Source: Azospirillum sp. TSH58
GTDB lineage: Bacteria; Pseudomonadota; Alphaproteobacteria; Azospirillales; Azospirillaceae
Assembly (NCBI RefSeq): GCF_003119115.1
Contig: NZ_CP022367.1
Coordinates: 124,001 to 188,000, forward strand
Direction: 5' to 3'
Length of the DNA stretch: 64,000 nt
Shown here: one piece after another, positions 4,947 to 55,578 of the stretch
Position numbering within the stretch: the first letter of the stretch is position 1
How the letters are laid out: each line of letters starts with the position of its first letter
Notes under the pieces: model-generated
Told to the model about the DNA's origin: nothing
The model's database searches: none
What the model saw: only the letters and a program-made list of their open reading frames with translations
Program-made: the position numbers and the translations under genes

Positions 4947-4974
4947 AGCGGCAACGCGCAGCGGAGGACCAGCC

Positions 4975-5772
4975 ATGCTCACCCACGCCCATTCCCTGCC
5001 GGCCAGCGGCACCGGCTTTCCGGAAGCGGCCGATCAGGCTCCGAATCAGGCAAACGTGACGTGGCTGGTCGCCGAGGAGACTCCGGTGGCGTTCGAATAC
5101 AACGGACGCTCCCACGCCGTGATGATGGCGACGCCCGCCGATCTGGAGGACTTCGCGCTGGGCTTCAGCCTGTGCGAGGAAATCGTCGGCAGCGCCGCCG
5201 ACATCGACCGCGTCGCGGTGCGCACGGTGGAGGACGGCATCATCCTGTCCATCGTGGCCGACCCGTTGCGTCTTCTGCGCGGCTCGCTCCGCCGCCGTTC
5301 GATGGAGGGGCGGAGCGGCTGCGGCCTGTGCGGGGTGGACAGCCTCGCCAACGCTGTTCGCGAGCCGCCGAGGGTGACGGCGGGCTTCACCCCGTCGGTG
5401 GGGGCGGTGGCCGCCGCCTTCGCCGCCCTGCCCGACCACCAGCCCATGAACCGCGCCAACAAGTCCCTGCACGCGGCGGCCTGGGCCGGTCCGGACGGGC
5501 GCATCGTGATGGCGCGAGAGGACGTCGGGCGGCACAACGCGCTCGACAAGCTGGCCGGCGCGCTGGCCCGCGCCGGGATCGACCCGTCCGGCGGCTTCGC
5601 GGTGATGAGCAGCCGCTGCAGCTTCGAACTGGTTCAGAAGGCCGCGACCATCGGCATCCCCATGCTCGCCACCATTTCCGCCCCCACGGCGCTGGCGCTG
5701 AAGCTCGCCCGCGCCGCCGGCATGACGCTGGCCGCGCGCGCGCGCGGCAACGGCGTCATGCTGTTCCGTTGA
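4975..5772 (+). CDS. fdhD: FdhD/FdsC-type sulfurtransferase for formate dehydrogenase maturation
   Basis: This 265-residue protein belongs to the FdhD family, which delivers sulfur to the molybdenum cofactor of formate dehydrogenases and is needed for activity. The family CxxC appears in GCGLCG near residue 115, so the sulfur-carrying loop is intact; some FdsC homologues lack it. The EDVGRHNALDK signature is also present. It starts 28 bases after fdsA behind a GGAGGA site, in the place usually held by fdsC. The fdsC name would also be defensible. Confidence 0.92.
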   Translation: MLTHAHSLPASGTGFPEAADQAPNQANVTWLVAEETPVAFEYNGRSHAVMMATPADLEDFALGFSLCEEIVGSAADIDRVAVRTVEDGIILSIVADPLRLLRGSLRRRSMEGRSGCGLCGVDSLANAVREPPRVTAGFTPSVGAVAAAFAALPDHQPMNRANKSLHAAAWAGPDGRIVMAREDVGRHNALDKLAGALARAGIDPSGGFAVMSSRCSFELVQKAATIGIPMLATISAPTALALKLARAAGMTLAARARGNGVMLFR

Positions 5773-9414: not shown

Positions 9415-10185
9415 TCAACCAGCGGACGCGCTTCCTGGTTCCCTGGCCGATTCCCTGGCCGATTCCCTGGCCGATTCCTTGCCCGGTTCCTGGGCGCCCT
9501 GCGGCGCCGTATGGGATTCGGATGGAGGGACGCGTCCGGATCTGCGGCGTAATGCCCCAGCCCAGCGCTCCGCCCGCCGAAGCTCTGAATCGAGCGCCGC
9601 CATGGTCCGCGACAGGTCGGCGCTGTCGTCCTCCAGGAAGACGCGCATGACCCGCGCCTGCACCGCGCCGAGCCCGGCCACCAGGAGGGCGCCGCCGGTC
9701 CGGTCGGCCTCCACCCCCGCGGCGCGCAGCATCCAGGCCATCGACCGCCCGAAGTGACGGGAGAAGGCCAGCGCGGTGAGCGGTTCCCGCCGCAGATCGC
9801 GGACGACCGAGCGCAGCCCGTCCCGGTAGGGCAGCAGCGCGTCGTAGCGGCGCATCATCACGTCGAACAGCCGGTCGCGGGCGCTCTCGTCCGGACCGGC
9901 CGGGGCGTCGTCGGCGAGGACCGCCGTATCGGCGACCCGCGACACCGCGGCCAGCACGTCGGACCGGTCGGGGAAGCGGCGGTAGAAGACGTCCGGCGGC
10001 ACCCCCGCCCCCCGCGCGATCGCCAGCAGGCCGGTGTCGCGCCAGCCCTGCCCGGCGGCGAGCCGCATCGCCGCGGCGGCCACCCGCTGGTCCAGTTCGT
10101 CGGCCCCTCCCCCTCCCGCGGCGTTCCCCGCGGTGTCGGGGGCCTCGGGATCGGTCTTCCAGCGGGTGTCGGCGGTGTCGTCCAT
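9415..10185 (-). CDS. TetR-family transcriptional regulator
   Basis: This 256-residue protein has a TetR-like N-terminal helix-turn-helix at about residues 30-80, with the recognition part AGVPPDVFYRRFPDRSDVL, followed by an all-helical ligand domain. The first 25 residues form a flexible Asp/Gly-rich leader. The C-terminus carries a short SARE repeat tail encoded by a 12-base tandem repeat. It lies 56 bases downstream of the membrane glycosyltransferase-like gene on the same strand, so the two may be cotranscribed. The start was fixed at MDDTADT; reading further upstream would pass through the neighbouring gene. Confidence 0.82.
   Translation of the reverse strand: MDDTADTRWKTDPEAPDTAGNAAGGGGADELDQRVAAAAMRLAAGQGWRDTGLLAIARGAGVPPDVFYRRFPDRSDVLAAVSRVADTAVLADDAPAGPDESARDRLFDVMMRRYDALLPYRDGLRSVVRDLRREPLTALAFSRHFGRSMAWMLRAAGVEADRTGGALLVAGLGAVQARVMRVFLEDDSADLSRTMAALDSELRRAERWAGALRRRSGRVPPSESHTAPQGAQEPGKESARESARESAREPGSASAG
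9439..9486. repeat. 12-base tandem repeat in the TetR C-terminus
   Basis: Three perfect copies of a 12-base unit (9439-9474) and one degenerate copy encode repeating SARE tetrapeptides at the regulator's C-terminus. The period is a multiple of three, so copy-number change would keep the frame. Confidence 0.85.
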
Positions 10186-10241
10186 GGGGTCGAACCTCGT
10201 GGTCAGCCTGTCCCCATGATGTGGGATGCCCGCGCCGCACC

Positions 10242-11888
10242 TCAACCGGGGCGGCAGAAGGGGAAGGGTTCGGCCCGCTTCATATAGGTGGGAATCCAGC
10301 CGCACTGGCCGGCGGGGTTGGGCAGGCGGATGGCCTCGATGGCCGGCCAGACCTGGGCGACCACCACCACCAGAGCCACCATGCCGACGATCCAGCGGCG
10401 CGTCCGGGCGCGCTCCAGCAGACCGGGCAGGCGCAGCAGCACCCAGGCCGCGGCCAGCCCCATCAACGGGTCGGTGTAGGCGGCGTAGGCCCGCTGGAAT
10501 CCGCGCAGGGAGAACAATGTCTCCAGCCCCCAGGCGACCAGCAGCAGAAGCGCCGCCTGGGCCGCCGCCACCCGCTCCCCCCGGCGCCACAGGACGATGC
10601 AGCCGCCGATGATGAACCACTCCACCACGACGGTCTGCGGAATGTTGTCGGGGTGAAGGATGATGGTGCGGATCGCCAGCGTGCGCCACAGCCCCTTCGC
10701 CAGCAGCATCGCCAGCCCGTCGGACAGCACCTGCTCCTGCCCCTGGAGCGCGGCCTGATGCTTCCAGGTGGTGAAGACGAACATGTGCTCGATCAGGTTG
10801 GCGACGGCGATCACGTTCTGCTCGTGCGGGCGGATCGTCAGGGCGAGCACGCCGAGCGCCAGCCCGAGCGCGACCGCCGCCATGGCCGCCGCCGCGTAGG
10901 ACAGGCGCACGCGCCACACCGCCGCGTAGACGGCCATGCCGAGGACGACCCAGCCGACGACGATCCCCTGATAAACCCCCGACAGCCCGCCGCCGACCGG
11001 GCGGTAGGGATAGAGCGACTGGCCGGCGCTGGCGATGCCGTGCTGGATCAGGGCCGCCGCGGGCAGCGCCGCCGCGCCCGCCGCCAGCCCCAGAATGCCG
11101 GCGGCGATCCAGCGGGGACCGTCCTGTTCGGTGAATCGGCGCCCGAAGGCCAGCGCGATCACCGGAATGCCCAGCGCCAGGAAGATCGCCTGGATCTTCG
11201 TCACCACCGCCAGCCCGGCCAGCAGACCGGCCAGCCCGAGCAGCAGAAGCGGCCGCCAGCCCGGCGCGGTGCGGACGGCGACCAGCACCAGAAGAAGCGC
11301 CGTGACCACGAAGGAGGCCGACAGCAGGTCGGTGCGCATCTGCCGCGCCTGGGTGGACAGGCCGATGCCGAAGGCCATCACCACCGCGGCCAGGAAGGCC
11401 ACCCGCCGGTCCCCGACCAGCGCGCGGACGAGGTTGGCGTAGATCAGCGCGAATCCGGTGGTGACGAGGATGGACAGCGCCCGCCCGGCCTCCACCAGAT
11501 TTTGCCAGGCTGCGTTGTAGGCGGCGGTGTCGGCGGCGGGCGGCAGACCGGACAGGGTGATGACCGGCATCAGCCCCAGCGCGTGCAGCAGCCGGTACCA
11601 GACCTCGATCACCAGGAAATAGGTGTAGCCGGGATGGTCGAAATACTCCTGGGGCAGCCCCTCGCTGAACAGCAGCCCGTGATAGGCCAGCACCAGATCC
11701 TGGTCGGCGTGCGACCAGTAGGGGGTGCGGAAGCCGATCGCCAGGGCCGACACCACCATGACCACCGCCAGCGCCGTGCACAGACCCCACCAGGGCCAGC
11801 GGTCCAGCAGGCCGGCGCCGGGCACCCCGGCGGAGCGGTTGGGCATGACCAAACGGGGAGACGTGGCGCCGCGGTCCGGGGATGACAT
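10242..11888 (-). CDS. Multi-pass membrane protein resembling GT-C (PMT/ArnT-type) glycosyltransferases
   Basis: This 548-residue integral membrane protein has about a dozen hydrophobic helices. After the first membrane helix, a periplasmic loop carries the acidic pattern HADQDL and then YFDHPGYTYF, as in GT-C enzymes that use lipid-linked sugars. Such proteins add sugars to lipids or proteins on the outer face of the inner membrane. The C-terminal GQCGWIPTYM region is unassigned. No sugar-pathway genes lie nearby, so the substrate is unknown. The TetR gene lies downstream on the same strand and may regulate it. The family call is moderate; the membrane call is firm. Confidence 0.7.
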   Translation of the reverse strand: MSSPDRGATSPRLVMPNRSAGVPGAGLLDRWPWWGLCTALAVVMVVSALAIGFRTPYWSHADQDLVLAYHGLLFSEGLPQEYFDHPGYTYFLVIEVWYRLLHALGLMPVITLSGLPPAADTAAYNAAWQNLVEAGRALSILVTTGFALIYANLVRALVGDRRVAFLAAVVMAFGIGLSTQARQMRTDLLSASFVVTALLLVLVAVRTAPGWRPLLLLGLAGLLAGLAVVTKIQAIFLALGIPVIALAFGRRFTEQDGPRWIAAGILGLAAGAAALPAAALIQHGIASAGQSLYPYRPVGGGLSGVYQGIVVGWVVLGMAVYAAVWRVRLSYAAAAMAAVALGLALGVLALTIRPHEQNVIAVANLIEHMFVFTTWKHQAALQGQEQVLSDGLAMLLAKGLWRTLAIRTIILHPDNIPQTVVVEWFIIGGCIVLWRRGERVAAAQAALLLLVAWGLETLFSLRGFQRAYAAYTDPLMGLAAAWVLLRLPGLLERARTRRWIVGMVALVVVVAQVWPAIEAIRLPNPAGQCGWIPTYMKRAEPFPFCRPG

Positions 11889-35282: not shown

Positions 35283-36101
35283 TCAGTGGCCCATTTGTCG
35301 GTGCCCCGTGGGTCCGTGATCCATCTGGTCATGACCCATGGCGCCGTGGTCCATCGTGCCGTGCGCGCCGTGCATGGACATGCCGTGGACCATGGACGGG
35401 TCCAGCTTGATGGCGCTGGCGTCGCCGGGGTAGCGGTCGACGACGCTCTCCAGGAGCCCGATCTCGTAGGTCTGGTCCCGGACGATGTCGTAGTTCATGG
35501 TGCGCAGGAAGCTGTTCTCGCCGTTCGGGTCGGCGTTGTAGTCCCGCGCCATGTCGAGCGCGCCCTGGTGGTGCGCGATCATCGCCTTGGCCCAGCGGAC
35601 GTCGTACTCGTCGACCGCGCCGGATGTCGTCCAGAGGTCGAGCGCCGTCGGCGGCGGCGCCTTGATGTAGGACAGGCGGTGCTCCAGCCCCTCGGTGGCG
35701 ACCGGTCGCCGGACGAGCTTGGTCGAACCGAAGTCGGCCAGCACCGTCGGCGGCTGCTCGACCTGGCGCTTCACCTCGTCGAGCACGGCGATCTCGTACT
35801 CCTGGTTGGCGATGATGGCGCCCGCCATGCGCCGCAGCACCGGGTTCCGGCCCTTGGCCAGATACTCCTCGGACATCGTCAGCGCACCCGCGTGGTGCTC
35901 GCGCATGCCATTCACGTAGTCGAGGTCGGCCTTCACGACCGCGGAGGCGACCGCGCCGCCCGAGACCAAGGCGAGCTCGTAGACGGCGGTCTCGTGCCAA
36001 TCCCCGCCGCCACCGCCGTCGGCCATGACCGCCGATGCCGCAGAGAGCGCCAGGACCAGAGCCAGGGCGCTGCCCAGGAGGGCATTTTTCTTCGTCAACA
36101 T
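35283..36101 (-). CDS. Secreted double-DUF305 protein
   Basis: This 272-residue protein has an N-terminal signal peptide (helix after MLTKKNALLG, likely cleaved near VMADG) and two DUF305 domains. Each carries the His motif: MREHHAGALTM at about residue 68 and MIAHHQGALDM near residue 180. DUF305 proteins are helical, often found beside copper genes, and thought to bind metal through such His/Met clusters. The C-terminal 40 residues are rich in His and Met (MHGAHGTMDHGAMGH). It is 12 bases downstream of the HMA gene in one likely copper-induced operon. Confidence 0.87.
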   Translation of the reverse strand: MLTKKNALLGSALALVLALSAASAVMADGGGGGDWHETAVYELALVSGGAVASAVVKADLDYVNGMREHHAGALTMSEEYLAKGRNPVLRRMAGAIIANQEYEIAVLDEVKRQVEQPPTVLADFGSTKLVRRPVATEGLEHRLSYIKAPPPTALDLWTTSGAVDEYDVRWAKAMIAHHQGALDMARDYNADPNGENSFLRTMNYDIVRDQTYEIGLLESVVDRYPGDASAIKLDPSMVHGMSMHGAHGTMDHGAMGHDQMDHGPTGHRQMGH

Positions 36102-36112
36102 GGTGCGTCTCC

Positions 36113-36313
36113 TCAGGCGATCGGCGTGGCGTCGTAGCCCGCGTCGGCCAGCGTGCGGACGATCAGGTCGGCGCCGACGTCGCCGTCGACGGCAAGGCGT
36201 CGGTCGGGCGGGTCGGCCTGGATGGCCGTGACGCCGGGGACGGCAGCCAGGGCTTTGCGGACGGCATTGGCGCATCCGCCGCACGTCATGCCGGGAACGG
36301 TGAACTGCAACAT
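36113..36313 (-). CDS. HMA-domain copper chaperone (CopZ-like)
   Basis: This 66-residue protein is a single heavy-metal-associated domain with the Cu(I)-binding GMTCGGCANAV motif at residues 8-18. It is expected to pass copper to partners such as a P-type ATPase or the periplasmic pathway. Although this is a cytoplasmic-type domain, its operon partner is a secreted DUF305 protein. The start MLQFTVPG was chosen by domain length. A CueR-type site lies about 65 bases upstream, so copper induction is predicted. Confidence 0.93.
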   Translation of the reverse strand: MLQFTVPGMTCGGCANAVRKALAAVPGVTAIQADPPDRRLAVDGDVGADLIVRTLADAGYDATPIA

Positions 36314-36375
36314 CGGTATCCTCCTCGACGGGGTCCCTCCGGACCGCTCCGGTTCGTCTCTGGAGGCCAGCCTCC

Positions 36376-36399
36376 ACCTTCCAGTCATTGGAATGTCAA
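36376..36399 (-). promoter_or_regulatory. CueR-type operator/promoter of the HMA-DUF305 operon
   Basis: Read leftward, TTGACA (36394-36399) overlaps the dyad ATTCCAATGACTGGAAGG. A GAGGCT -10 follows after a 19-base spacer, the long spacing of MerR-activated promoters. The half-sites match the sites at 42657 and 53056. Confidence 0.75.
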
Positions 36400-36617
36400 T
36401 CACCTTCCTGCCGCATTGCGGCTGCGCAACGCGCAGCCCAGGCATGTTATCGCAGCATCACGGCGGACGGGTCACCCTTGGTCGCCCGGCGCCCGGCGCC
36501 CGCGACGGGACGATGAACTCAGTACGGGTTGCAGGAGGCGCACAGGATTCGCGTCCTTGATTGCTCCCCGGCCATCCGGTGATCTACCCTGTCCGAATGG
36601 GGATATTCAGTGGGGAA

Positions 36618-39426: not shown

Positions 39427-39615
39427 TCAGCCCCTACGCGCCTTTCGGCCGACAGCGAACAGCATCCCGGCGAGCACCAGAAACACGATGGCGCCGCCGC
39501 CCCAGACCCGGACGTAGCCGGGCATCCCGAGGCTGGGGACGAAGGCGTAGACGGCGGCCAACCCCGCCCACACCGTGACGATGGCCAGGGTCAGCCAGAG
39601 TTCGTCGTTCTTCAT
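39427..39615 (-). CDS. Small two-helix membrane protein of the oxidase operon
   Basis: This 62-residue protein has two membrane helices (about residues 6-24 and 36-54) separated by a short loop. It directly follows the subunit I gene, 16 bases downstream on the same strand. Small accessory subunits of this size are common in ba3- and cbb3-type oxidases, so it may be a subunit of the complex. No metal-binding residue stands out. Function is inferred from position and size. Confidence 0.7.
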   Translation of the reverse strand: MKNDELWLTLAIVTVWAGLAAVYAFVPSLGMPGYVRVWGGGAIVFLVLAGMLFAVGRKARRG

Positions 39616-39631
39616 GGCTTTTCTCCCGCGC

Positions 39632-41323
39632 TCAGTGCCCATGCCCGCCGCCGATGGCGATGATCGGCAGGGATTGGATCAGCTGGAACGCGACGATGGT
39701 GAAGACATACATGGCGGCGACCAGCGCGGCGACCGACACCGGCCCGGTCCACGCGGGCGCGGCGCCGACGCCGCGCGCCCCGGCCTGCCAATCGACCACG
39801 CGAACCTGTTCAGCCGTCGCGCGCCGCGACAGCAGCGTGCGCACGACGCCGTAGACGGTGACCGAGATGGCCACGGCGAAGACCGTGGCGCCAACGCCGA
39901 CCAGGGCCATCAGCACCGGCCACGCCGCGGGGGCCATGCCGCCGTAGCTCACGTCGAACACCCGGCGCGGCACGCCCATGAACCCGGCCGTGATGCCCGC
40001 GGCGCCGAAGATGACCAGACCGATCGTCACCAGCAGGGGCATGCGCCTCAGCACCGCCGGGCGCCACAGGCTGCCGCCGCTCAACGCCGGGAGCATGACC
40101 ATCATGGCGGCCAGGAATGTCTGGGTCAGCACGCCGACCGCGAAGAAGTGGAAGTAGCCGGGCACGAAGAAGGTGTCCGACAGCATCGGCGCCAGTTCGC
40201 CCTGGATCAGGACGAAGGCGAAGGTGATGCCGACCATCATGTTCGCCACCGCCCAGCCCAGGTTCGTCATGGCCGGGTTGTCCCACGGCAGCCCGCGCAT
40301 CCAGCCGAAGAAGCCGGTGGCGCCGCGCGCCCGGGCGCTGGCCTCCAGCGAGGAGACGATGATGGCGAAGGCCGCCAGCGTCGGGACCGAGACGAACAGC
40401 GACAGCAGCGAGCCGACGACCCGCACGCCTTCGGACAGGTTCGGCTCCAGGAACATGTGGTAGAGGCTGGTCGGCGGCACGAAGACCAGATACGCCGCGA
40501 AGACGACCTTCGACATCCTGGCGCCGTGGATGGACGTCACGCCGGTCAGGTGCTCGGTCAGCACGTACCACACCAGCACGGTCGCCATCAGCGGCAGGTA
40601 GTGCAGGTTGTGGAACAGGATGTGCCACTCGGTGCCGTGGTCGGCCGGGAACGGCCCGGCGCCCAGCGACCACAGCACGCCCGGCAGGAAGGCGTTCGTC
40701 GCCGCGATGGCGCTGACCACCAGGAACCCCGCCCAGGCGAACAGCGCGAAGCCGATGGAGGTGAATGCGTCCGCCTCGCCACGCAGCCGGGGCTGGAACA
40801 CCGTCGCGATGCCGCTGACCGCCGAGGCGACCAAGCCGCCGGAGAGCAGCAGGTAGCCCAGCGCGAAGAACCCGACCGAGCGCGGATCGTCCGCGGCGAG
40901 CTCCGGGCTGCCGTCGTAGAGCAGCGGCGTGCCGGTGTAGGAGATCCATTCGCTGACACCGAAGCCCGCCAGCATCAGCGCAGCACCCAACCAGGCGAAC
41001 GGGCGCAACGCCAGCCCGCATCCGTTCTCGGCAGCGGCGAGCACGAGCAGGAGGGCCGCTTGGATCAGGTACAGCCAGTAGAAGAACACCGACACGCCGT
41101 GCAGGGTGAGCAGGCGGTAGGCGTCGTCGGGGAAGAAGGTCAGCGCACCGGCACGGGCCAGTGCGGTCACAAAGCCTCCGATCAAGCCCAGCACCAGCGC
41201 CAGCAGGGCGGCACCGAACAGCAGCTTGAGGAGCGCCTTGTCGGGCGTCGGCAGGGCTTTGATGCGCGCCGCCAGGGCGGGCTTGGAGCCGACCGGGGCG
41301 ACGTTCGTTGAGATGGTATCCAT
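39632..41323 (-). CDS. Divergent heme-copper oxidase subunit I with altered active site
   Basis: This 563-residue, about 13-helix protein is clearly related to B-family (ba3-type) cytochrome oxidase subunit I. The low-spin heme ligands H75 (in TLHGVSVFF) and H392 are present, as is the CuB His-Tyr pair H238/Y242 (HNLHY). However, the CuB His-His pair reads Tyr288-His289 (LYHMF), and the high-spin heme histidine is Tyr390 (VPGYFH). A GFFGWMRGLPWDNP segment matches ba3 enzymes. The electron-accepting subunit II is next upstream. Oxygen reduction by the usual mechanism is doubtful. Altered ligands are also seen in NO-reductase relatives of this superfamily, so that role is possible but unproved. 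Confidence 0.85.
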   Translation of the reverse strand: MDTISTNVAPVGSKPALAARIKALPTPDKALLKLLFGAALLALVLGLIGGFVTALARAGALTFFPDDAYRLLTLHGVSVFFYWLYLIQAALLLVLAAAENGCGLALRPFAWLGAALMLAGFGVSEWISYTGTPLLYDGSPELAADDPRSVGFFALGYLLLSGGLVASAVSGIATVFQPRLRGEADAFTSIGFALFAWAGFLVVSAIAATNAFLPGVLWSLGAGPFPADHGTEWHILFHNLHYLPLMATVLVWYVLTEHLTGVTSIHGARMSKVVFAAYLVFVPPTSLYHMFLEPNLSEGVRVVGSLLSLFVSVPTLAAFAIIVSSLEASARARGATGFFGWMRGLPWDNPAMTNLGWAVANMMVGITFAFVLIQGELAPMLSDTFFVPGYFHFFAVGVLTQTFLAAMMVMLPALSGGSLWRPAVLRRMPLLVTIGLVIFGAAGITAGFMGVPRRVFDVSYGGMAPAAWPVLMALVGVGATVFAVAISVTVYGVVRTLLSRRATAEQVRVVDWQAGARGVGAAPAWTGPVSVAALVAAMYVFTIVAFQLIQSLPIIAIGGGHGH

Positions 41324-41340: not shown

Positions 41341-42000
41341 TCACGCGACGACGATGCGGCCCTGCATGGCGTCGTGCGCCTGGCCGCAGTAGACGGTGCA
41401 GTACACGAGGTACTCGCCCGGCTTGGTGAAGGTGATGACCTGCGCGGTGACCGTGTTCGGGCGGAGACGGATGATCCGGCTGGCGGCTCCCAGCTGGATC
41501 GACGCACCGTGGGTGATGTCGTCCGCCATCATGCGGAACCGGTACGCCTGCCCGGCCTTCAGCCGCAACATGTCCGGGCTGTAGGAGAACTTCTGGGCCA
41601 TCAGGTAGACGTCCACCGGCTCGCCTCCGGCGTCATGGCCGTGGTCATGCCCCTCGGCGGCGTGGCTGTGCGTGTCCTCGCTGGCGTGCGGGTTCACGCT
41701 ACCGTCCTTCTGCGTGTAGCGTTGGACGAAGTAGTCGTGCTCGAAGCGGAACTCCTCGGGCGCCATGCCCGCCAAAGCCCCGTGACCACCGTGGCCACCG
41801 CCCTCGGCGGGTGCTTCGGCGGCGCCGTGGCCGCCATGACCGCCGCCGTGGGCGTCGGGTTCGGGGGCGGCCGCTTCCTTGTGGCCACCGAAGGGGAGCG
41901 GTGCGGCCCCGTAGGCCGCCCAGGCGCCGTACAGGGAGACGGCGCCGAAGCCCAGTCCGGCGATAAAGCCGCGACGGGTCGTGAAATGCCTCTCAGACAT
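41341..42000 (-). CDS. CuA-type oxidase subunit II with Tat-type leader
   Basis: This 219-residue protein has a Tat-like leader (RRGFIAGLGFG) acting as anchor, a long His/Gly/Ala-rich linker (residues 38-125, with repeated HGGHG), and a cupredoxin domain. All CuA ligands are present: H164, C201, C205, H209 and M212, in the CTVYCGQAHDAM motif. It would take electrons from a c-type cytochrome and feed subunit I. Its start is exact behind GACTCTC. It is encoded 17 bases upstream of subunit I. The His-rich linker is unusual for this family and may bind copper. Confidence 0.88.
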   Translation of the reverse strand: MSERHFTTRRGFIAGLGFGAVSLYGAWAAYGAAPLPFGGHKEAAAPEPDAHGGGHGGHGAAEAPAEGGGHGGHGALAGMAPEEFRFEHDYFVQRYTQKDGSVNPHASEDTHSHAAEGHDHGHDAGGEPVDVYLMAQKFSYSPDMLRLKAGQAYRFRMMADDITHGASIQLGAASRIIRLRPNTVTAQVITFTKPGEYLVYCTVYCGQAHDAMQGRIVVA

Positions 42001-43251: not shown

Positions 43252-43407
43252 CCATCTGACGCCACGAGTCCGCCCGCGCCCGACCTGAGCCTCGGCTCGG
43301 CGAAGGACGCCGACTCCGGATTCGTGCGCTTGGCTTTTGCGTCCCCGGCGCTCCCGCGTGGAGTTCGTCCGGGATGGCATGAACCCAATGTTCAGATGGA
43401 GGACGCC

Positions 43408-44172
43408 ATGTCGTCTCTCACCCGCAAGATGCTCCCGGCACTCGCGCTGACCGCCATGATGTCGGTCGCCCAGGCCCAGACCACCACCGACCAGGACCAC
43501 AACGCCCATCATCCGGACGGTGCCGCGGCCACGACGCAGGCCCAGCCCGCTCCGACCCCGACCCCGACTCCCACGCAGCCGATCCCAGGCGCGAAGCCCG
43601 GCGCGCCCGGCAACGCACCGATGATGGGTCAGGGCATGGGCAGCGGCATCATCGTCCAGCCCGGCGCCCAGGCGCAGGGTGGCCAGCCCGGCATGATGAT
43701 GAACATGGACCAGATGCGCTCGATGATGGGCGGCATGTCGGGCCAGCAGGACGGCCAAGCCGGGATGATGGAGCCTGGGATGATGGGGCCCGGCATGATG
43801 TCCATGATGCGACAGATGATGATGGGCCAGCAGGGCGGAATGGGCTCGCCCTTCGAGCACGTTGAGGGCCGCATCGCGTTCCTGAAGGCCGAACTCAAGA
43901 TCACCGACGCCCAGGCGCCGCAGTGGAACGCCTTCGCCGACACGCTGCGGGCGAACGCCAAGGCCCATCGGGCCATGCACGAGCAGATGGCCATGGGCGG
44001 CATGCCCTCCTCCTGGCCCGACCGGCTCGCTTTCCAGCAGAAGGCGCTCGCCACCCGGCTCGACGCCCTGAAGGCGCTGGAGTCCGCCGCCAAGCCGCTC
44101 TATGCCGTGCTGACCGACGAGCAGAAGACGCTCGCGGACCGGCTGCTCCCCGGCCCCATGGGCATGATGTGA
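43408..44172 (+). CDS. Spy/CpxP-like periplasmic Met-rich protein
   Basis: This 254-residue protein has a signal peptide (ending AQAQ), a Pro/Thr-rich spacer, a long Met/Gly/Gln region (MMGQGMGSG, GMMMNMDQMRSMMGG) likely to bind Cu(I), and a helical C-terminal half of the Spy/CpxP type with two-fold LTxxQ-like sites (LKITDAQAPQWNAF and LTDEQKTLADR). Spy-like proteins act as periplasmic chaperones or metal sensors. The start behind GGAGG at 43408 was chosen over one 12 bases upstream. It precedes the DUF2933 gene by 10 bases, in the copper cluster. Confidence 0.85.
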   Translation: MSSLTRKMLPALALTAMMSVAQAQTTTDQDHNAHHPDGAAATTQAQPAPTPTPTPTQPIPGAKPGAPGNAPMMGQGMGSGIIVQPGAQAQGGQPGMMMNMDQMRSMMGGMSGQQDGQAGMMEPGMMGPGMMSMMRQMMMGQQGGMGSPFEHVEGRIAFLKAELKITDAQAPQWNAFADTLRANAKAHRAMHEQMAMGGMPSSWPDRLAFQQKALATRLDALKALESAAKPLYAVLTDEQKTLADRLLPGPMGMM

Positions 44173-44182
44173 GGAGGCGGCC

Positions 44183-44455
44183 ATGACGCACCACGAACAC
44201 ACCCATCACGCTCCCGAGCCGCAGGCGCGCACGCCCTGGTACCGGACCTGGACCGGCTTGGCCGGACTCGGCGCGACCGCCCTGGCGGCCGTGTACCTGT
44301 CGCTCTTCCACGTCGACCATGTGCTCGACGCACTTCCGCTTCTCGTCCTGCTGCTGTGCCCGCTGATGCACCTGTTCATGCACGGCGGCCACGGGCATGG
44401 CGGCCACGGCGGGAATGGTGACGCCGACCGGCCGACCAAGGGAGGCACGCCATGA
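44183..44455 (+). CDS. DUF2933 small membrane protein with His-rich ends
   Basis: This 90-residue protein has a His-rich N-terminus (THHEHTHHAPEP), two membrane helices, and a His/Gly-rich C-terminus (MHGGHGHGGHGG). It fits the DUF2933 family found in copper-resistance clusters. Both ends and the loop could bind copper, but its role is unproved. Its last four bases overlap the next gene's ATG, so the two are translationally coupled. Confidence 0.85.
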   Translation: MTHHEHTHHAPEPQARTPWYRTWTGLAGLGATALAAVYLSLFHVDHVLDALPLLVLLLCPLMHLFMHGGHGHGGHGGNGDADRPTKGGTP

Positions 44456-45129
44456 CGCACGAAGCCTCGGCCTATGGCCTGTGGGTGCTGGTCGCCCTCA
44501 ACTCGGCCATCTTCATCGTCTTCGCCTTCAGCTTCGGCAAGCCGCAGTCACCGCGGGACTGGCGGTCCTTCGGGGCGTTCAGCGCCTTCATCGTGGCCCT
44601 GTTCACCGAGATGTACGGCTTTCCATTGACCATCTACCTCCTCTCGGGCTGGCTCCAGACCCGCTACCCGAGCCTCGACATCCTGTCCCACGACGCCGGG
44701 CACCTTTGGTCGACCGTCCTCGGCCTGGAGGGCAACCCACACTTCAACGTGCTGCACATCCTCAGCAACGTCTTGATCCTCGCGGGCTTTGTCCTGCTCT
44801 CGGCGGCCTGGAAAGTGCTTCACGCGGCGCAGAAGCAAGACCGGCTCGCCACGACGGGCGTGTACGCCCATGTCCGGCACCCGCAGTACATCGCTTTCAT
44901 CGGCATCCTGTTCGGCTTTCTGCTCCAGTGGCCGACCATCCTGACGCTGGCGATGTTCCCGCTGCTGGTCCTGATGTACGTCCGTCTGGCCCGGTCCGAG
45001 GAGCGGGAAGCCCTCCGGGTGTTCGGCGCCGAGTACGAGCGTTACGCCGCGGTCACGCCGGGTTGGCTTCCACGTCTCTCCTCCCGTGGGCCGAACCACC
45101 CCAGAGTGGGAGGGTCGTTCGGTGCGTGA
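44452..45129 (+). CDS. Isoprenylcysteine carboxyl methyltransferase-like membrane protein
   Basis: This 225-residue protein has five or so membrane helices and the ICMT/PEMT-type core: GVYAHVRHPQYIAFIG near residue 135 (SAM-binding RHPxY motif) and EEREALRVFGAEYERY near the C-terminus. Family members methylate lipids or protein C-termini at the membrane. Homologues of this form often occur in copper or silver resistance clusters, where their role is unknown. It overlaps DUF2933 by four bases and lies 16 bases before the TolC gene. Confidence 0.85.
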   Translation: MTHEASAYGLWVLVALNSAIFIVFAFSFGKPQSPRDWRSFGAFSAFIVALFTEMYGFPLTIYLLSGWLQTRYPSLDILSHDAGHLWSTVLGLEGNPHFNVLHILSNVLILAGFVLLSAAWKVLHAAQKQDRLATTGVYAHVRHPQYIAFIGILFGFLLQWPTILTLAMFPLLVLMYVRLARSEEREALRVFGAEYERYAAVTPGWLPRLSSRGPNHPRVGGSFGA

Positions 45130-45145
45130 TTCTGGGTGGACGCTC

Positions 45146-46336
45146 ATGAAGAAAGCGGCGGCAACGACCGTCGCCGTGTGCCTGCTGGCGCTCCCGGCCG
45201 GAGCGCAGACGCTTCGGGACGCGGTCGAGGGCGCCTGGAAGCTCAATCCCGAAGTCAGGAGCCTGGAGGCCCAGAGGGCCGTGGCCACCGCCCGGCGCGG
45301 CGCCGGGGAGGCGCTGGTCCCGGCCGCCCCGGCGGTCACGCTGCGGCACACGAGCGACTACCTGAACCGGAACATCGGACGGCGCGAGTACGAGGCCGAA
45401 CTCGGCGTCCCGCTCTGGCTGCCCGGCCAGGGAACGGCGACCGTCCGGGCCGCCGACGCGCTGCAGGCGCGCACCGACGCCGAGATCGCCGCGCGCCAGC
45501 TGGCGGTCGCCGGGGAGGTCCGGACGGCCCAGTGGCAGGTCGCGCTGGCCGAGCGCCGCGCCGAGCTTGCCCGCCAGCGCCTCAAGGTCGCCCGCCAATT
45601 GGAGGCCGACACCCGGCGGACCGCCCGGGCCGGGGAGACCTCGGAGGCCGATCACCAGTTGGCCCGCGCCGAAGCCCTCTCCGTCGCCACGGACCTCCGC
45701 GACGAGGAACTGGCACTGGAGGAGGCCCGCCAAGCGTTCCGGACGCTCACCGGCATGGCGCTCCAGAAGGCGGCACCGGAACCGGACATCGGCGAGCCGC
45801 CGCTTGAGCAGCACCCCTCCCTGCAGGCGGCGCGGCTGGGCGTCCGCTCGGCCCAGGCCCAGCGCCAACTGGTGGACCTGACGACGCGCGACAACCCGGA
45901 GGTCGGGCTGATGGCCCGCCGCGAGCGCGACAGCCGCGAGGAACGCTACGACACCGTGTTCGGCGTCTCCGTCCGCATCCCGTTCGCGGTCGAGGCTGTG
46001 AACGCGCCCAAGCGGGCCGAGGCGCTGAGCGAAGTCGTCCGCTCCGAGGCCGAGCAGGCCAACGCGACCCGCACGGTCGAGTCCGACATCCGGCAAGCCC
46101 GCCTCGCCCACCAGGCGGCGAGCGAGCGCCTGTCGATCGCCCGCGACCGGGCTGCGGCCCTCAGGGCACGTCTGTCGAACATCGAGCGGGCCCGGAGGGC
46201 GGGCGAGATCAGCCTCGTCGAGTACGTGCGCGCCCAGGAGGCGGCCTTCGAGGCCGACCTCGCCCACGCCACCGCCGAAGTCCGACTCGGCGCCGCCCGC
46301 GCCCGTATGAACCAGTCCCTCGGAGTTCTCCCATGA
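45146..46336 (+). CDS. TolC-family outer-membrane efflux protein
   Basis: This 396-residue protein has a signal peptide (MKKAAATTVAVCLLALPAGA) and a duplicated helical coiled-coil layout with EAQRAVATARR and SNIERARRAGEI pieces, as in CusC/TolC channels. It provides the outer-membrane exit for a tripartite pump. It overlaps the adaptor gene by four bases (ATGA at 46333). It is slightly short for the family but no truncation is obvious. The start at 45146 gives the signal peptide. Confidence 0.88.
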   Translation: MKKAAATTVAVCLLALPAGAQTLRDAVEGAWKLNPEVRSLEAQRAVATARRGAGEALVPAAPAVTLRHTSDYLNRNIGRREYEAELGVPLWLPGQGTATVRAADALQARTDAEIAARQLAVAGEVRTAQWQVALAERRAELARQRLKVARQLEADTRRTARAGETSEADHQLARAEALSVATDLRDEELALEEARQAFRTLTGMALQKAAPEPDIGEPPLEQHPSLQAARLGVRSAQAQRQLVDLTTRDNPEVGLMARRERDSREERYDTVFGVSVRIPFAVEAVNAPKRAEALSEVVRSEAEQANATRTVESDIRQARLAHQAASERLSIARDRAAALRARLSNIERARRAGEISLVEYVRAQEAAFEADLAHATAEVRLGAARARMNQSLGVLP

Positions 46337-48057
46337 CCACCCGACGCCTTCTTGCCGCGACCGCCGTCGCCGCGAGCCTTGCCGCGCCGGTCGCCGCTCC
46401 CGCCTTCGCCCATGAGGGCCACGCCCATGGCGGCGAGGAGCCGAAGCCGGTCGTCACGACGGCCGCCCCCACCCTGGAAGCGTCCTCGTCCGACTTCGAA
46501 CTCGTGGCGGTCGCCCAGGGAAAGACCTTGCTTGTCCATCTGGACCGCTTCGCCACCAACGAGCCCGTGAACGGCGCCACCGTCGAGGTGAGCGCCGATG
46601 GCGAGGCCACGACGGCCTCGCCCGTCTCCGGCGAGGAGGGCGTCTACCGCCTCGACCCGTCCTGGCTCTCCAAGCCGGGATCCCATGAAGTGACCGTCTC
46701 CGTCACCGCGGCCGACGCGGCCGACCTGCTGATCGGCACCCTGGAGATCCCGGCAGGTGCGGCTGAAGCGCAGACCGGCGGTGCGCAGGGTGTTTCCGCC
46801 GTCCTCGGGCAGGTCAGGAACGATTCCGGCCTGATGCTGGGGGCGGTCATGGTCTTCCTGCTCGGGGTCCTGACCACCGTCGCCCTGACCCAGCGTGGAC
46901 GCACGCGGACGGTCGCGGGCGCCGCGCTGGTCGGCATCGGCCTGCTGTTGGCGAGCGGCGCCGCCTTCGCCCACGGTGACGAGGACCACAGCCACGGCGA
47001 CGAGGACAAGGGCAAGGCACCGGCGGCGGCTGTCCCGATGGGGGCGACCGGCGCCTCGGAAAGCCCGCGGCGCCTGCCGGACGGCAGCCTGTACGTGCCC
47101 AAGCCGTCGCAGCGCCTGCTGTCGGTCCGCACCATCGTCGCCAAGCCGCAGGAGGCGGCGCAGACGGTGCAGTTGATCGGTCAGGTCATCGCCGACCCCA
47201 ACGGCGGCGGCCACATCCAGGCCACGCAGAGCGGCCGCATCGAACCGGGGGACAAGGGGCTGCCCTACGTCGGCCAGCGGGTCGAGGCCGGGCAAATCCT
47301 GGCCTACATCGCCCCCGCCGTGACATTCGTGGACCGCAGCGGAATCCAGCAGCAGATCGCGACGGTCGAGCAGGAACTCGTCATCGCCGAATCCCGCCTC
47401 CAGCGGCTCCGGAAGCTGGAAGGCAGCGTGCCCCAGCGCGACATCGAAGAGGCGGAGGCCAACCTCAACGGTCTGCGCAAGCGCCGGGCCGCCCTGTCCC
47501 CCGCGCTGACGACCAAGGAAGCCCTGCGCGCGCCCATCTCCGGGGTAGTCACGGCCAACAACATCAAGGCCGGACAGGTGGTCGAGGGGCGCGACCAGGT
47601 GCTGTTCGAGATCGTCGACCCGTCGCGGCTGATGGTCGAGGCGGTCGCCTTCGATCCCCGGGTGGCGAACAGCGTCCGCGGCGCCACGGCGACCACCGCC
47701 GACGGCGTCACCCTGAGCCTCGTGCATTTGGGGCACAGTCTGGCATTGCGCCAGCAGGCCATCCCGCTGCTCTTCCAGATCGACACCCCGCCCCAGGGAC
47801 TGAGCGTCGGCCAACCGGTGCGCATCGTCGCCCAAATCCAGGGGAAGGCGTCCGGCATCGTCCTGCCGCGGCAGAGCGTGGTGCGCAACGCCAGTGGCCA
47901 GCCCATCGTCTGGCAGCACGACACTCCGCAACGCTTCGTTGCCCGCCCGGTGCGCACGCAGCCCGTCGACGGCGACACGGTGCTGGTCCTGGCGGGTGTC
48001 GAGCCGGAGGCGCGCATCGTCACCGACGGCGCCGGTCTCCTCAACCAGGTCCGGTGA
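46333..48057 (+). CDS. RND periplasmic adaptor (CusB/CzcB-type) with extra N-terminal domain
   Basis: This 574-residue adaptor links the RND pump to the TolC channel. It starts with a signal peptide and a His stretch (HEGHAHGG), then a beta-rich domain of about 120 residues. Two hydrophobic segments around residues 170-215 follow, and a second His/Asp-rich stretch ([15 protein letters not shown]). The classical adaptor lies after residue 240: barrel-sandwich parts around QATQSGRI and [18 protein letters not shown], a coiled-coil hairpin, and a membrane-proximal end. The extra N-terminal module is unusual. It is between tolC and the pump gene. Confidence 0.88.
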
Positions 48058-48070
48058 GGAGCGCCCCGCC

Positions 48071-51000
48071 ATGTTCAACTTCCTCGTCAACACCAGCCTG
48101 CGCAACCGGCTCTTCGTCCTGGCCGCCGCGGCGATCCTCGTCGTCTACGGCTCGTTCGTCCTCAAAGACCTGCCGATCGACGTCTTCCCCGATCTGAACA
48201 AGCCGACCGTTACCCTGATGACGGAGGCCGAGGGGCTGGCGCCGGAGGAGGTCGAGCAGCTGGTCTCCTTCCCGCTGGAGACCTCGATGAACGGCATGCC
48301 GGGCATCACCCGCGTCCGTTCGGTGTCCGGCGTCGGGCTCAGCATCGTCTTCGTCGAGTTCGATTGGGGCACGGACATCTACCGCAACCGCCAGCAGGTT
48401 GCGGAGCGGCTGGCCATCGTCCAGGGGCAGCTTCCGCCCAACGTCCGGCCGCAGATGGGGCCGATCTCGTCCATCATGGGCGAGATCATGTTGATCGCCA
48501 TGAGCGGCGACGGCGTCGGCCCGATGGAGGTCCGTGAACTTGCCGACTGGGTGGTGCGGCCGCGGCTGCTCGCCATTTCCGGCGTCAGCCAGGTCATCCC
48601 CATCGGCGGGGAGATCCGGCAGTACCGCGTCGCCCCCGACCCGGCGCGCCTGCACGACCTGGAGATCACCACGGACGAGCTCGTGACGGCGCTTCAGCAG
48701 TTCTCGGCGAACACCGGTGGCGGCTTCATCGACCAGCATTCCCAAGAGTACCTGATCCGCAACATCGGCCGGACGACCCGGCTGGAGGACCTGCGCAACC
48801 TCGTCGTCGCCTACAAGACGGGGCAGCCCATCCTGCTCCACCAGATCGCCGCCGTGGATTTCGCCGCCCGCGTGAAGCGCGGCGACGCGGGCGTCAACGG
48901 CAAGCCCGCAGTGATCCTGTCCGTCCAGAAGCAACCCGGCGCCGACACCACGACATTGACCGCCGAGGTGGAAGCCGCCCTGGGCGACTTGGCGAAGTTC
49001 CTGCCGAAGGGCGTCCACGCCGACGAGATCCTGTTCAAACAGGCCAATTTCATCCAGACCTCCATCGGCAACGTGGAGAAGGTCCTGCTGGAAGCGGTGG
49101 CCGTCGTGGCGGTGATCCTCTTCCTGTTCCTGCTGAACGTGCGGACGACGTTCATCTCGCTGACCGCCATCCCGATCTCGATCCTGATCACCGTGCTGGT
49201 GTTCAAGGCGTTCGGCATGTCGATCAACACCATGACGCTGGGCGGCCTCGCCATCGCCATCGGCGAACTCGTCGACGACGCCGTGGTGGACGTTGAGAAC
49301 ATCTACCGGCGCCTCGGCGAGAACCGGCGGGCGGGCAACCCGCGGCCCGTCCTGGAGGTGGTCGCCTCGGCCTCGCAGGAGGTGCGCTCAGGCATCGTCT
49401 ACGCCACCATCATCATCATCCTGGTCTTCGTGCCGCTGTTTGCGTTGACCGGCATCGAGGGACGCCTCTTCGCGCCCCTGGGCGTTGCCTACATCGTCTC
49501 CATCCTGGCCAGCCTCGTCACCGCCATCACCGTCACGCCGGTGCTGTCCTACTACCTTCTCCCCAGGCTGAAGCGGCTGGAGGAGCACGACAGCTGGCTG
49601 GTCCGCAAGCTGAAGGCCGGGAACGTCCGGCTCCTGGGCTGGGCCTTCGCCAACCCGGGGACGCTGTTCGCCACGGTGGGGGCCGCCGTCCTGATCGCCG
49701 CGGCGACGGTGCCGAGCCTGCCACGCGCCTTCCTGCCGCCGTTCAACGAGGGCACGCTGACCATCTCCATGGTGCTGAACCCCGGCATCTCGCTGGCCGA
49801 GTCCAACCGGGTCGGGCTGGCGGCGGAGAGGCTGATCATGCAGGTGCCCGAGGTGGCCTCCGTCGGGCGCCGCACCGGCCGCGCCGAACTCGACGAGCAC
49901 GCCGAGGGCGTCCATTCCAGTGAGATCGATGTCGACTTGAAGCCGTCCGAACGCAGCCGGGCCGAGGTGCTGGCCGATGTCCGCGCCCGGCTGGCCGCCC
50001 TGCCGGTGTCGGTGAACATCGGCCAACCGATCTCGCACCGGCTCGATCACATGCTCTCCGGGGTGCGGGCGCAGATCGCGCTGAAGGTCTACGGCGAGGA
50101 TCTGGACACCTTGCGCAGCCTCGCCGGACAGCTTCAGCAGAAGCTCGCGGGCGTACCCGGGCTGGTCGACCTCCAGATCGAGAAGCAGGTGCGCATCCCG
50201 CAGGTCCAGGTGGTCGTGGACTACGAGCGGGCGGCGCTCTACGGCGTCACCCCGTCCATGGCGACGGAGGCGCTGGAGAGCCTGTCCAACGGCCGCGTGG
50301 TGTCGGAGATCGTCGACGGCACCCGGCGTTTCGACGTCGTGCTGCGCCTGTCGGACGAGGACCGCACCACCAGCGGCCTGGCGAACCTGCTGGTCGAGAC
50401 CCCGGCGGGCCGGGTGCCGCTCAGCCGGTTCGCCTCGGTCGAGGAGACGGACGGCCCCAACCAGATCCTCCGGGAGAACGGCAAGCGCCGCATCGTCATC
50501 CTCGGCAACTCCGACGGCCAGACGGACATGGCCCGGATCGTCGCGGGCATCCGCGACGTGGTCGCCCGGTCGCAGCTGCCGCCGGGCTACTTCACCAGCT
50601 TGGAAGGCACCTTCCAGGCGCAGGAGGAGGCGTCCAAGACCATCGCCGCGCTGTCGATGGTGTCTCTGGCGATGATCTTCCTGGTGCTGTACAGCCGCTA
50701 CCGCTCAGCGGTGCTGGCGCTGATCATCATGGGCAACGTGCCGCTGGCCCTGATCGGCAGCGTGGCGGCGCTGTGGATCGCCGGGCAGCCGCTGTCGGTC
50801 GCCTCGATGATCGGCTTCATCACGTTGACCGGCATCAGCACGCGCAACGGCATCCTGAAGATTAGTCATTACATCAACCTGGTCCTGCACGAGGGCGAGA
50901 CCTTCGGCAAGGCCATGGTGACCCGCGGCAGCCAGGAACGCCTGACACCCGTGCTGATGACCGCGCTGTCGGCGGGGGTGGCGCTGGTGCCGCTGATGAT

Positions 51001-51187
51001 CGGCGCCGACGCGCCGGGCAAGGAGATCCTGCACCCGGTCGCCGTCACCATCTTCGGCGGGCTGGTCAGCGCGACCCTGCTCGACACCGTCCTGACCCCG
51101 GTCCTCTTCCTCAAGCTCGGCGAGAAGCCGCTGAATCGTCTTGTCGCCGCCCAGGCCGGTTCGCTGCGTCCGGCCGAGGCCTACTGA
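48071..51187 (+). CDS. RND heavy-metal efflux pump (CusA/CzcA-type)
   Basis: This 1038-residue, 12-helix pump has the RND fold: [16 protein letters not shown] near the N-terminus, two large periplasmic loops, and the proton-relay motif [13 protein letters not shown] (from residue 398) in helix 4. It belongs to the heavy-metal (HME) group and, with the upstream genes, should export Cu(I)/Ag(I) or a divalent metal to the outside. The start MFNFLVN at 48071 was chosen over an earlier in-frame ATG overlapping the adaptor. It starts 13 bases after the adaptor stop. Confidence 0.93.
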
Positions 51188-52546: not shown

Positions 52547-52565
52547 CGTGACGGGGGATGCGGTG

Positions 52566-53024
52566 ATGAAGGCGATGAAGATTGGCGTTGGCTTGGCCAT
52601 GGGTGCGGCGATCGCGGTGGCTGGCGTCTTCCTGCTCGCTGGCCCCAAGGCAGGCGCCGATCCAACCGACGACGCCCAGGTTGCCCAGGGCAAGGCGGTC
52701 TACGCGGAGCAGTGCGCGTCGTGCCACGGCACGCGGCTCGAGGGCCAGCCGGAGTGGCAAAGCCGCAAGCCGGACGGCCGTCTGCGCGCGCCGCCGCACG
52801 ATGCCTCCGGGCACACGTGGCACCACCCCGACGCCGACCTCTTCAAGATCACCAAGCAAGGCGTCGTTGAATTCGCCCCGCCCGGCTATGAGAGCGACAT
52901 GCCCGCCTTCGGCGGCGTGCTGAGCGATGCCGAGATCTGGGCGGTCCTGGCCTTCATCAAGAGCTCCTGGCCCGAGGAGATCCGTCTTCGCCACGCCGCC
53001 ATGAGCGAACGCGCGAAGAAGTGA
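52566..53024 (+). CDS. Membrane-anchored or secreted cytochrome c
   Basis: This 152-residue protein has an N-terminal hydrophobic segment (likely an uncleaved anchor or leader) and one heme c site, CASCH, with the distal methionine probably in DMPAFGGVLSD. The fold is class I cytochrome c. It may pass electrons to a copper-oxidising or respiratory enzyme; the nearby CuA-type oxidase is a possible partner, by inference. It is downstream of the propeller gene and ahead of a copper-regulated ATPase promoter. Confidence 0.88.
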   Translation: MKAMKIGVGLAMGAAIAVAGVFLLAGPKAGADPTDDAQVAQGKAVYAEQCASCHGTRLEGQPEWQSRKPDGRLRAPPHDASGHTWHHPDADLFKITKQGVVEFAPPGYESDMPAFGGVLSDAEIWAVLAFIKSSWPEEIRLRHAAMSERAKK

Positions 53025-53086: not shown

Positions 53087-53175
53087 CGGTTTCATGAATG
53101 CCATCGCACGTCGGTGCCGGGAAGCACGAACGAACGCGGAGGCACCGACGCCTGCATGCGAAGGGAGAAGCGAAC

Positions 53176-55578
53176 ATGAACGACCAGCACCGCAGCCACG
53201 CGCACCATCCCAACCACCACAGTCACGGTGGGCAAGACCATCACGCCGGTCCCGACGACCGGCCCAAGGTGAAGGACCCCGTGTGCGGCATGATGGTCGA
53301 TCCCGAGCGAACCGGGCACCAAGCCGGGCACGGCGGCCAGACCTTCCACTTCTGCTCGGCGCGCTGCCACGACAAGTTCGTCGCCGACCCAGGGCGGTAC
53401 CTGAAGCCGGAGGCAAAGCCCGCCGGTCCCGAGAAGCCCGCCCAGGCGTCGCCGCAGAAGGGCGTGATCTACACCTGCCCGATGCACCCGGAGATCCGCC
53501 AGGAGGGGCCGGGCAACTGCCCGATCTGCGGCATGGCCCTGGAGCCGGTCGGAGCCACCCTCGAGGAAGGGCCCAACCCGGAACTCGTCGACATGACGCG
53601 GCGGTTCTGGATCGGCTTGGTCCTGAGCGTGCCGCTGCTGGTGCTGGAGATGGGCGGCCACATCCCGGGGCTTGGGCTCCATGACGTGGTGCCGCCCCGC
53701 ATCTCCGTCTGGATGCAGTTCCTGTTGGCGACGCCGGTGGTGCTGTGGGCGGGTTGGCCGCTGCTGGAGCGCGGCTGGCAGTCGTTCGTGAACCGCAGCC
53801 TGAACATGTTCAGCCTGATCGCGCTGGGCGTCGGGGTGGCCTACGTGTTCAGCCTGGTCGCGACGTTCCTGCCAGGCATCTTTCCGCCGAGCTTCCGAGG
53901 CATGGACGGCGTGGTGGCCGTCTACTACGAGGCGGCCGCCGTCATCACGGTGCTGGTGCTGCTCGGGCAGGTGCTCGAGCTCCGCGCCCGCGAGCAGACC
54001 GGCGGCGCCATCCGCGCGCTGCTCAACCTCGCGCCCAAGACGGCGCGGCGCATGCGGGGCGACGGCGAGGACGAGGAGGTGCCGCTCGAGGTGGTCCAGG
54101 TCGGCGACCGGCTGCGCGTCCGTCCCGGCGACGGCGTGCCTGTGGACGGCGAGGTGCTCGAGGGCCGCAGCGCCGTCGACGAGTCCATGGTCACCGGCGA
54201 GAGCATGCCGGTCGGGAAGGAGCCGGGCGCCAAGGTCATCGGCGGTACCGTGAACCAGACGGGCGCCCTGGTGATGCGGGCCGACAAGGTTGGGTCCGAC
54301 ACCATGCTGTCGCGCATCGTGACCATGGTCGCCGAAGCCCAGCGCAGCCGGGCGCCCATCCAGCGCATGGCCGACGTCGTTTCCGGCTACTTCGTCCCGG
54401 CGGTCATCCTCGTGGCCGCCCTGGCCTTCGTCGGCTGGATGGTCTGGGGGCCGCAGCCCGCCTTCGCATACGCGCTGATCGCGGCGGTCTCGGTGCTCAT
54501 CATCGCCTGCCCTTGCGCGCTGGGGCTGGCGACGCCGATGTCGATCATGGTCGGTGTCGGCAAGGGGGCGACCGCGGGCGTCCTGATCAAGGACGCGGCG
54601 TCCCTGGAGCGGTTCGAGAAGGTCGACACGCTCGTCGTTGACAAGACCGGCACCCTGACCGAGGGCAAGCCGAAGGTGACCGCCGTGGTTCCGGCGCCGG
54701 GCATCGACGAGGCGGACCTTCTGACGCTGGCGGCGAGCCTGGAGCGGTCGAGCGAGCACCCGCTGGCGGCCGCCATCGTCGCCTCCGCCAAGGAACGGGG
54801 CCTGCCGCTGCGGGACGTCGCCGACTTCGGCTCCGTCACCGGCAAGGGCGTCGTCGGGACGGTCGGCGGGCGCACAGTGTCCCTCGGCAACGCCGCGATG
54901 ATGCGGGACCAGGGTGTCGCGCTGGGCGACCTGAAGGCGCGCGCCGACGAGCTCCGGCGCGAGGGCGCCACCGCTCTCTTCGCCGCCATCGACGGCCAGC
55001 CGGGTGGCGTGATCGCGGTCGCCGATCCGATCAAGGCGACCACGGCGCACGCGCTGGAGACGCTCCGGAACGATGGTGTGCGGATCGTCATGCTAACCGG
55101 TGACAACCGGACCACGGCCGAGGCGGTGGCGCGCCGCCTGGGCGTCGACGCGGTCGAGGCCGAGGTGCTGCCGGAGGACAAGAACCAGGTAGTGAAGCGG
55201 CTGAAGGCGCAGGGCCGGGTGGTGGCGATGGCCGGAGACGGCGTGAACGACGCCCCGGCGCTGGCCGAGGCCGACATCGGCGTGGCGATGGGCACCGGCA
55301 CCGAGGTCGCGATTCAGAGTGCCGGGGTGACGCTGGTGAAGGGGGATCTGGCGGGTATCGCACGGGCGCGGACTCTCAGCCGGGCAACGATGCGCAACAT
55401 CCGGCAGAACCTGTTTCTGGCGTTCGTCTACAACGCCCTCGGCGTGCCGGTCGCGGCGGGTGTCTTCTACCCGCTGTTCGGGTGGACGCTGTCACCGATC
55501 ATCGCCGCGGCCGCGATGGCCCTGAGTTCGGTGTCCGTGGTCGGGAACGCGCTGCGGCTGCGTAGGCTCAAGTTGTAA
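53176..55578 (+). CDS. copA: Copper-translocating P1B-type ATPase
   Basis: This 800-residue ATPase exports Cu(I) from the cytoplasm. It has a His-rich N-terminus, a YHS domain ([10 protein letters not shown], residues 34-80), a second metal-binding segment (TCPMHPEI and [10 protein letters not shown]), then the membrane and catalytic parts: TGES at 340-343, the CPC motif at 445-447, phosphorylation site DKTGT at 489-493, and GDGVNDAP near the C-terminus. The copper class is given by CPC together with the N-terminal domains; no HMA domain is present. It is driven by its own CueR-type promoter. Confidence 0.94.

Follow-up and report, generated by a model that had tools for sequence, protein, structure and literature searches.

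The locus analysed here raises the question of what a heme-copper oxidase subunit I has become when tyrosines stand in place of one CuB histidine and of the proximal histidine of the high-spin heme: a damaged gene, a member of a known family or an oxidoreductase with another function. The window is a stretch of 64,000 nucleotides from Azospirillum sp. TSH58, in which a sequence-only reading had placed the gene at 39632-41323 without giving its strand. These coordinates proved exact, and translation assigned the gene to the minus strand, where it encodes 563 aa (563 codons, no internal stop) from an ATG at 41323, with an in-frame GTG at 41344; the plus strand carries another long open frame over the same interval, which is meaningless. 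The protein matched Pfam COX1 with 102 bits and none of the NCBIfam models, and in profile alignment the closest solved sequence was the Thermus ba3 subunit I (E about 1e-22), at about 22% identity. An AlphaFold2 model computed from a 16-sequence alignment (pLDDT 74, pTM 0.81), which is only moderate to weak at about residues 373-389, was compared with known structures using Foldseek and VIA-align and returned the heme-copper oxidase fold, with Z about 30 to both 7deg and 1ehk. The Pfam match and the structure comparison thus both place the 12-helix subunit I fold of the heme-copper oxidoreductase superfamily along the full length of the protein. Because 7deg, ba3 and the A-type oxidases were near ties in the VIA-align ranking, no subclass of subunit I is drawn from it.

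The residues of the active site were assigned by profile alignment to Thermus ba3 and by wider multiple alignments. H75, H238, Y242, Y288, H289, Y390 and H392 correspond to ba3 His72, His233, Tyr237, His282, His283, His384 and His386, respectively. The roles of the ba3 ligands, including those of His282 as a CuB ligand and of His384 as the axial ligand of heme a3, are stated in PMC4979044. Tyr288 (codon 40460-40462, minus strand) therefore matches a CuB ligand and Tyr390 (codon 40154-40156, minus strand) matches the axial heme a3 ligand, as had been claimed by eye, and both codons are indeed TAC. The register is unambiguous at both positions, since the motif pairs YHMFLEP/HHQFADP and VPGYFHF/VPGHFHL match. 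Retention of H75, H392, H238 and Y242, also claimed by eye, was borne out by the ba3 alignment: the low-spin heme pair (His75 and His392), two CuB histidines (His238 and His289) and the tyrosine at the cross-link position (Tyr242) are all kept. Four of the six histidines that bind the hemes and CuB in heme-copper oxygen reductases are thus present, and the positions of His282 and His384 are tyrosine in every member of the family described below.

Homologues were collected by a single scan of species genomes, which yielded 24 loci, and by whole-genome searches, which added more. Tyr288 and Tyr390 were invariant in 34 homologous sequences, wherever the corresponding stretch was present. Both tyrosine codons are in use (TAC in 28 and TAT in 6 at position 288; TAT in 22 and TAC in 12 at position 390; no other residue), and within Azospirillum NG86 dN was 0.05-0.12 against a dS of 0.32-0.54. 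Full-length members scored above 600 bits and fragments down to about 280, and the next relatives scored about 80-150; those of the latter with clean sequence at both sites all have histidine there, and no single-tyrosine intermediate was found among the matches in the class, family and phylum searches. It had been considered that the homologues might all carry histidine, making the present copy a mutant; all of them carry the two tyrosines and none histidine, so that homologues and codon use together rule out a mutant or an artefact. That the pattern reflects a sequencing error, a decayed gene or a single-strain mutation is vanishingly improbable, even though one Azospirillum copy of subunit I (L016, 5001-6688; also L082/L088) is split into two overlapping frames, which points to a sequencing error or a decayed copy in that case. 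Some genomes carry two copies, namely G421 (L062 and L086, the same genes as L004 and L002) and G418 (L074 and L087, where the second match spans only part of the profile), and a close copy lies on a plasmid record that has no gene annotation.

Confirmed members belong to Alphaproteobacteria or to unclassified Proteobacteria, mainly to Azospirillum, and some carriers are soil or water bacteria. The patterns of the species-genome scan were derived from the window protein, so that distant members can escape it, and it returned only Alphaproteobacteria and unclassified 'Proteobacteria' MAGs; no member from outside the Alphaproteobacteria was found in 398 sampled genomes of the phylum. The order-level searches around two carriers covered just 1 and 4 genomes. 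The family is real, conserved and unusual, as it breaks the six-histidine rule at both the catalytic heme and CuB.

The upstream gene (41341-42000, minus strand) encodes the CuA subunit II that had been proposed from the window alone. Its product starts with TTRRGF and contains one hydrophobic segment, a His-rich linker and a CuA domain, whose best PDB matches are the ba3 CuA. All CuA ligands (H164, C201, C205, H209 and M212) are present and were invariant in 28 subunit II sequences. Of the 30 loci compared, 29 have subunit II next to subunit I; in the remaining one, the contig begins within subunit I. Downstream, a gene overlapping the end of subunit I (39427-39642, minus strand) encodes a 71-aa protein with two hydrophobic segments, which we propose as a small third subunit; it recurs in divergent members and was not detected in all of them. 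On the other side of subunit II, before the LTXXQ gene described below, the segment 42106-42490 (minus strand) would encode a short, secreted-looking peptide containing His and Cys, with no Pfam match and an uncertain start.

In a maximum-likelihood tree (LG+C20, in which the root serves for drawing only and the method warns of long A-type and B-type branches), the family forms one clade with 100/100 support on a long stem. Its sister is a group of eNOR-like sequences (98/92), and the B-type oxidases fall outside. We label as 'eNOR-like' those sequences with Gln at the position of the active-site tyrosine (His+4 = Gln), which are candidates for NO reductases. The earlier 'ba3-type' label for subunit I holds in so far as the protein is ba3-like over its full length; it is too narrow, because identity to ba3 is about 22% and the protein branches with the eNOR-like sequences.

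Comparison with known relatives sharpens this placement. The Thermus thermophilus ba3 oxidase (B family; 1EHK) and the terminal oxidase 7deg share with the family the whole-length fold, the low-spin histidine pair, two of the three CuB histidines, the cross-link tyrosine position and the CuA subunit II; the family differs from ba3 by tyrosine at the axial heme a3 histidine and at one CuB histidine, and these ligands rule out an ordinary ba3 oxidase. The eNOR-like candidates of the B family, although nearest in the tree, keep all six histidines and have Gln where the family has tyrosine. NO reductases are distinguished by the residue at this position, which is Gln in eNOR, Asn in sNOR and CuANOR, Asp in gNOR and Glu in cNOR and qNOR (PMC8756737, table). 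Neither the Gln of eNOR nor the residues of the five other types are found in the family, every member of which has Tyr242, and membership of eNOR, sNOR, gNOR, cNOR or qNOR is ruled out by this diagnostic residue. The cNOR and qNOR (NorB) proteins belong to the same superfamily and also include members with altered active sites, whereas the family has a CuA cupredoxin partner and an active-site tyrosine and bears no recognisable similarity to NorB beyond that of the superfamily. In the 'degenerate B family' oxidases, likewise B-type relatives from alphaproteobacteria, O2 reduction is thought to be lost or changed (PMC6431628); those proteins are described as lacking the catalytic tyrosine, whereas the family keeps it and loses metal ligands.

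The sequence-only reading knew of no family with the exact Tyr/Tyr pattern, which is indeed not among the NOR types tabulated in PMC8756737, and we found no description of this ligand pattern in the literature searched (mostly open papers, with few subscription papers or preprints). The six histidines have counted as so fundamental in this superfamily that a reference classifier discarded sequences lacking them (PMC3084760), and a family of this kind would thus be filtered out, which may be why no published description was found.

Further changes surround the high-spin site. Of the positions that B-type and eNOR-like sequences both conserve, the family retains 32 and has a different fixed residue at 11, including those of His282, His384, His376, Asn377 and Gly363. 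In ba3 numbering, the multiple alignments gave the replacements D372A, H376S, N377D, N366L, G363A, G232F and V236H. Small residues are lost at the positions of Gly360 and Gly363, which hints that the pocket of the high-spin heme may be filled. The histidine at the Val236 position, His241 (codon 40601-40603, minus strand), is invariant in the family and could stand in for the lost CuB histidine as a replacement copper ligand. Since the low-spin histidine pair and ba3 Arg449 and Arg450 are kept but the surroundings of the high-spin heme are changed, we consider the electron-input half of the protein to be intact and its catalytic half to be rebuilt.

Loss of several active-site residues would also fit a catalytically dead relative, acting as an electron relay, a sensor or an assembly factor. 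This is quite improbable: no member of the family deviates at His238, His241, Tyr242, Tyr288, His289 or Tyr390, six residues for which a dead site would have no need.

An enzyme that still reduces oxygen (or peroxide), its CuB site altered and its high-spin heme bound by a tyrosinate as in catalase, would fit the invariance of Tyr242 at the place of the active-site tyrosine cross-linked to a CuB histidine, as well as the retention of His238, His289 and Tyr253 and the CuA partner. Part of the K-type proton path is also retained: ba3 Tyr237 and Tyr248 are kept and hydroxyl residues remain at two positions (Thr302 to Ser, Ser309 to Thr), with Tyr244 replaced by Val and Thr312 by Ala or Val. A phenolate ligand, on the other hand, is expected to lower the potential of the heme, and the active-site Gly232 has become Phe. 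The axial histidine is gone, and so are Asp372 and His376, the partners of the heme a3 propionate, with which they form the proton-loading network of ba3 (PMC10766771). We regard such an enzyme as slightly less probable still than a dead relative.

A different function is suggested by the genes that flank the unit in the window. Divergently transcribed from it on the plus strand are genes for an LTXXQ-family periplasmic protein (43324-44172), a DUF2933 protein (44183-44455), an ICMT-like membrane methyltransferase (44452-45129), an outer-membrane efflux protein (45086-46336), a CusB-like membrane-fusion protein (46333-48057) and a CusA/CzcA heavy-metal RND pump (47894-51187, the real start being probably near 48071 because the profile match begins at residue 60). 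A cytochrome c (52548-53024), which may be the electron donor, and a copper-translocating P-type ATPase with YHS and HMBD domains (53098-55578) follow on the same strand. On the opposite side of the unit, the minus strand encodes a heavy-metal-associated (HMA) domain protein (36113-36445) and a DUF305 protein (35283-36122 being the stretch scanned). Clusters of DUF2933, ICMT, cupredoxin and copper ATPase genes have been reported in copper-resistant Alteromonas (PMC8478169). This copper-defence setting, like the small downstream gene and the additional changes at the high-spin site, goes beyond the sequence-only reading.

Copper-defence genes lie beside the unit in three independent lineages, namely Azospirillum, L020/L021 and L123. 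In L020/L021, genes for a multicopper oxidase (CopA-like in L020), LTXXQ, DUF2933 and ICMT proteins stand directly upstream of subunits II and I on one strand. In L123, where the unit runs in the order II, I, III, the gene for a YHS P-type ATPase begins just 8 bp past subunit III; DUF2933 and ICMT genes come later, and the whole array shares one strand. No adjacent copper cluster was found in L120, L121 or L125, which counts against a role in copper defence, and on accessory replicons adjacency need not mean that genes share a function.

The explanation that we tentatively prefer is that these proteins are a conserved variant family among the CuA-type heme-copper oxidoreductases, in which electron input works but the active site has been rebuilt and may lack its heme, and that they probably serve in copper defence. 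The invariance of both tyrosines, the 100/100 clade, the changed surroundings of heme a3, the invariant CuA and the linkage to copper genes speak for it; the retention of Tyr242 and of part of the proton path, as in oxygen reductases, the moderate quality of the model at 373-389 and the loci without a copper cluster, of which L121 has nirK instead, speak against it. Electrons would pass from a periplasmic donor to the CuA of subunit II and on to the intact low-spin heme of subunit I, and would not reach a normal heme a3-CuB centre; the protein therefore probably does not act as an ordinary oxidase that reduces oxygen and pumps protons. Any high-spin heme would need Tyr390 as its ligand, the arrangement known from catalases, unless this heme is absent altogether; copper would be bound by His238 and His289, probably joined by the newly gained His241, and Tyr242 and Tyr288 would lie near. 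The most likely role would be in copper defence, for example by moving electrons to oxygen or peroxide from Cu(I) or from periplasmic carriers under copper stress. The more specific proposal, in which the classical high-spin heme is lost or tyrosine-held, a copper/tyrosine site is formed by His238, His241, His289, Tyr242 and Tyr288, and a respiratory electron path serves copper defence, is possible though on the unlikely side. If it is true, the superfamily would have a job beyond reducing O2, reducing NO and dismutating NO, and, provided that the link to copper is real, plant-associated bacteria would have turned respiratory machinery to metal defence. A natural, conserved replacement of histidine by tyrosine at the high-spin heme is also a direct test of which components of the most studied respiratory active site are required, and of the purpose that they serve.

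The main rival to copper defence as the function of the family is NO handling. The protein might be an NO reductase of a new type, or an enzyme that detoxifies NO, with electrons passing through CuA and the low-spin heme to a rebuilt dinuclear site where the NO made by NirK is reduced. The sister position of the eNOR-like sequences (98/92) is consistent with this, as is L121, where the gene after subunit I, in the same orientation, encodes a NirK (501 bits) and hemerythrin and Crp/Fnr-type genes are also present. Outside the genus of the window, nirK was found in 6 of 12 carriers, several of them incomplete MAGs, and neither cNOR nor qNOR was detected in these six, whose remaining heme-copper matches are of the A-type and cbb3; nirK without NOR is, however, common among partial denitrifiers. 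Within the genus, nirK is commoner in carriers (17/20 versus 13/25; Fisher p=0.027, in a test that ignores kinship). The genome of the window itself already has nirK and two NorB-like proteins (L030 and L031, contig C7), one of which lies about 1 kb from nirK and is followed by a NorQ-like ATPase, so that it probably has a conventional NO reductase. Moreover, Tyr242 is kept, at a position that is occupied by E, N, Q or D in known NORs (PMC8756737). NO reduction was lowered from first choice because of the NorB-like proteins in the genome of the window and because half of the other carriers lack nirK, and we now consider it unlikely, copper defence remaining the preferred function.

Several other genes were noted during these comparisons. 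In L120, a 453-codon frame directly after subunit I (10133-11494, plus strand) matches Pfam Phenol_MetA_deg (PF13557) and contains a Met/Gly-rich stretch. In L125, from an Azospirillaceae MAG, a protein of the MauG/di-heme cytochrome c peroxidase family is encoded about 2.6 kb upstream of subunit II (4699-5655, minus strand). Finally, L083, L084, L085, L057, L115 and L117 form a separate B-type group with Leu before the first CuB histidine (TLHAIVY) and otherwise normal ligands.
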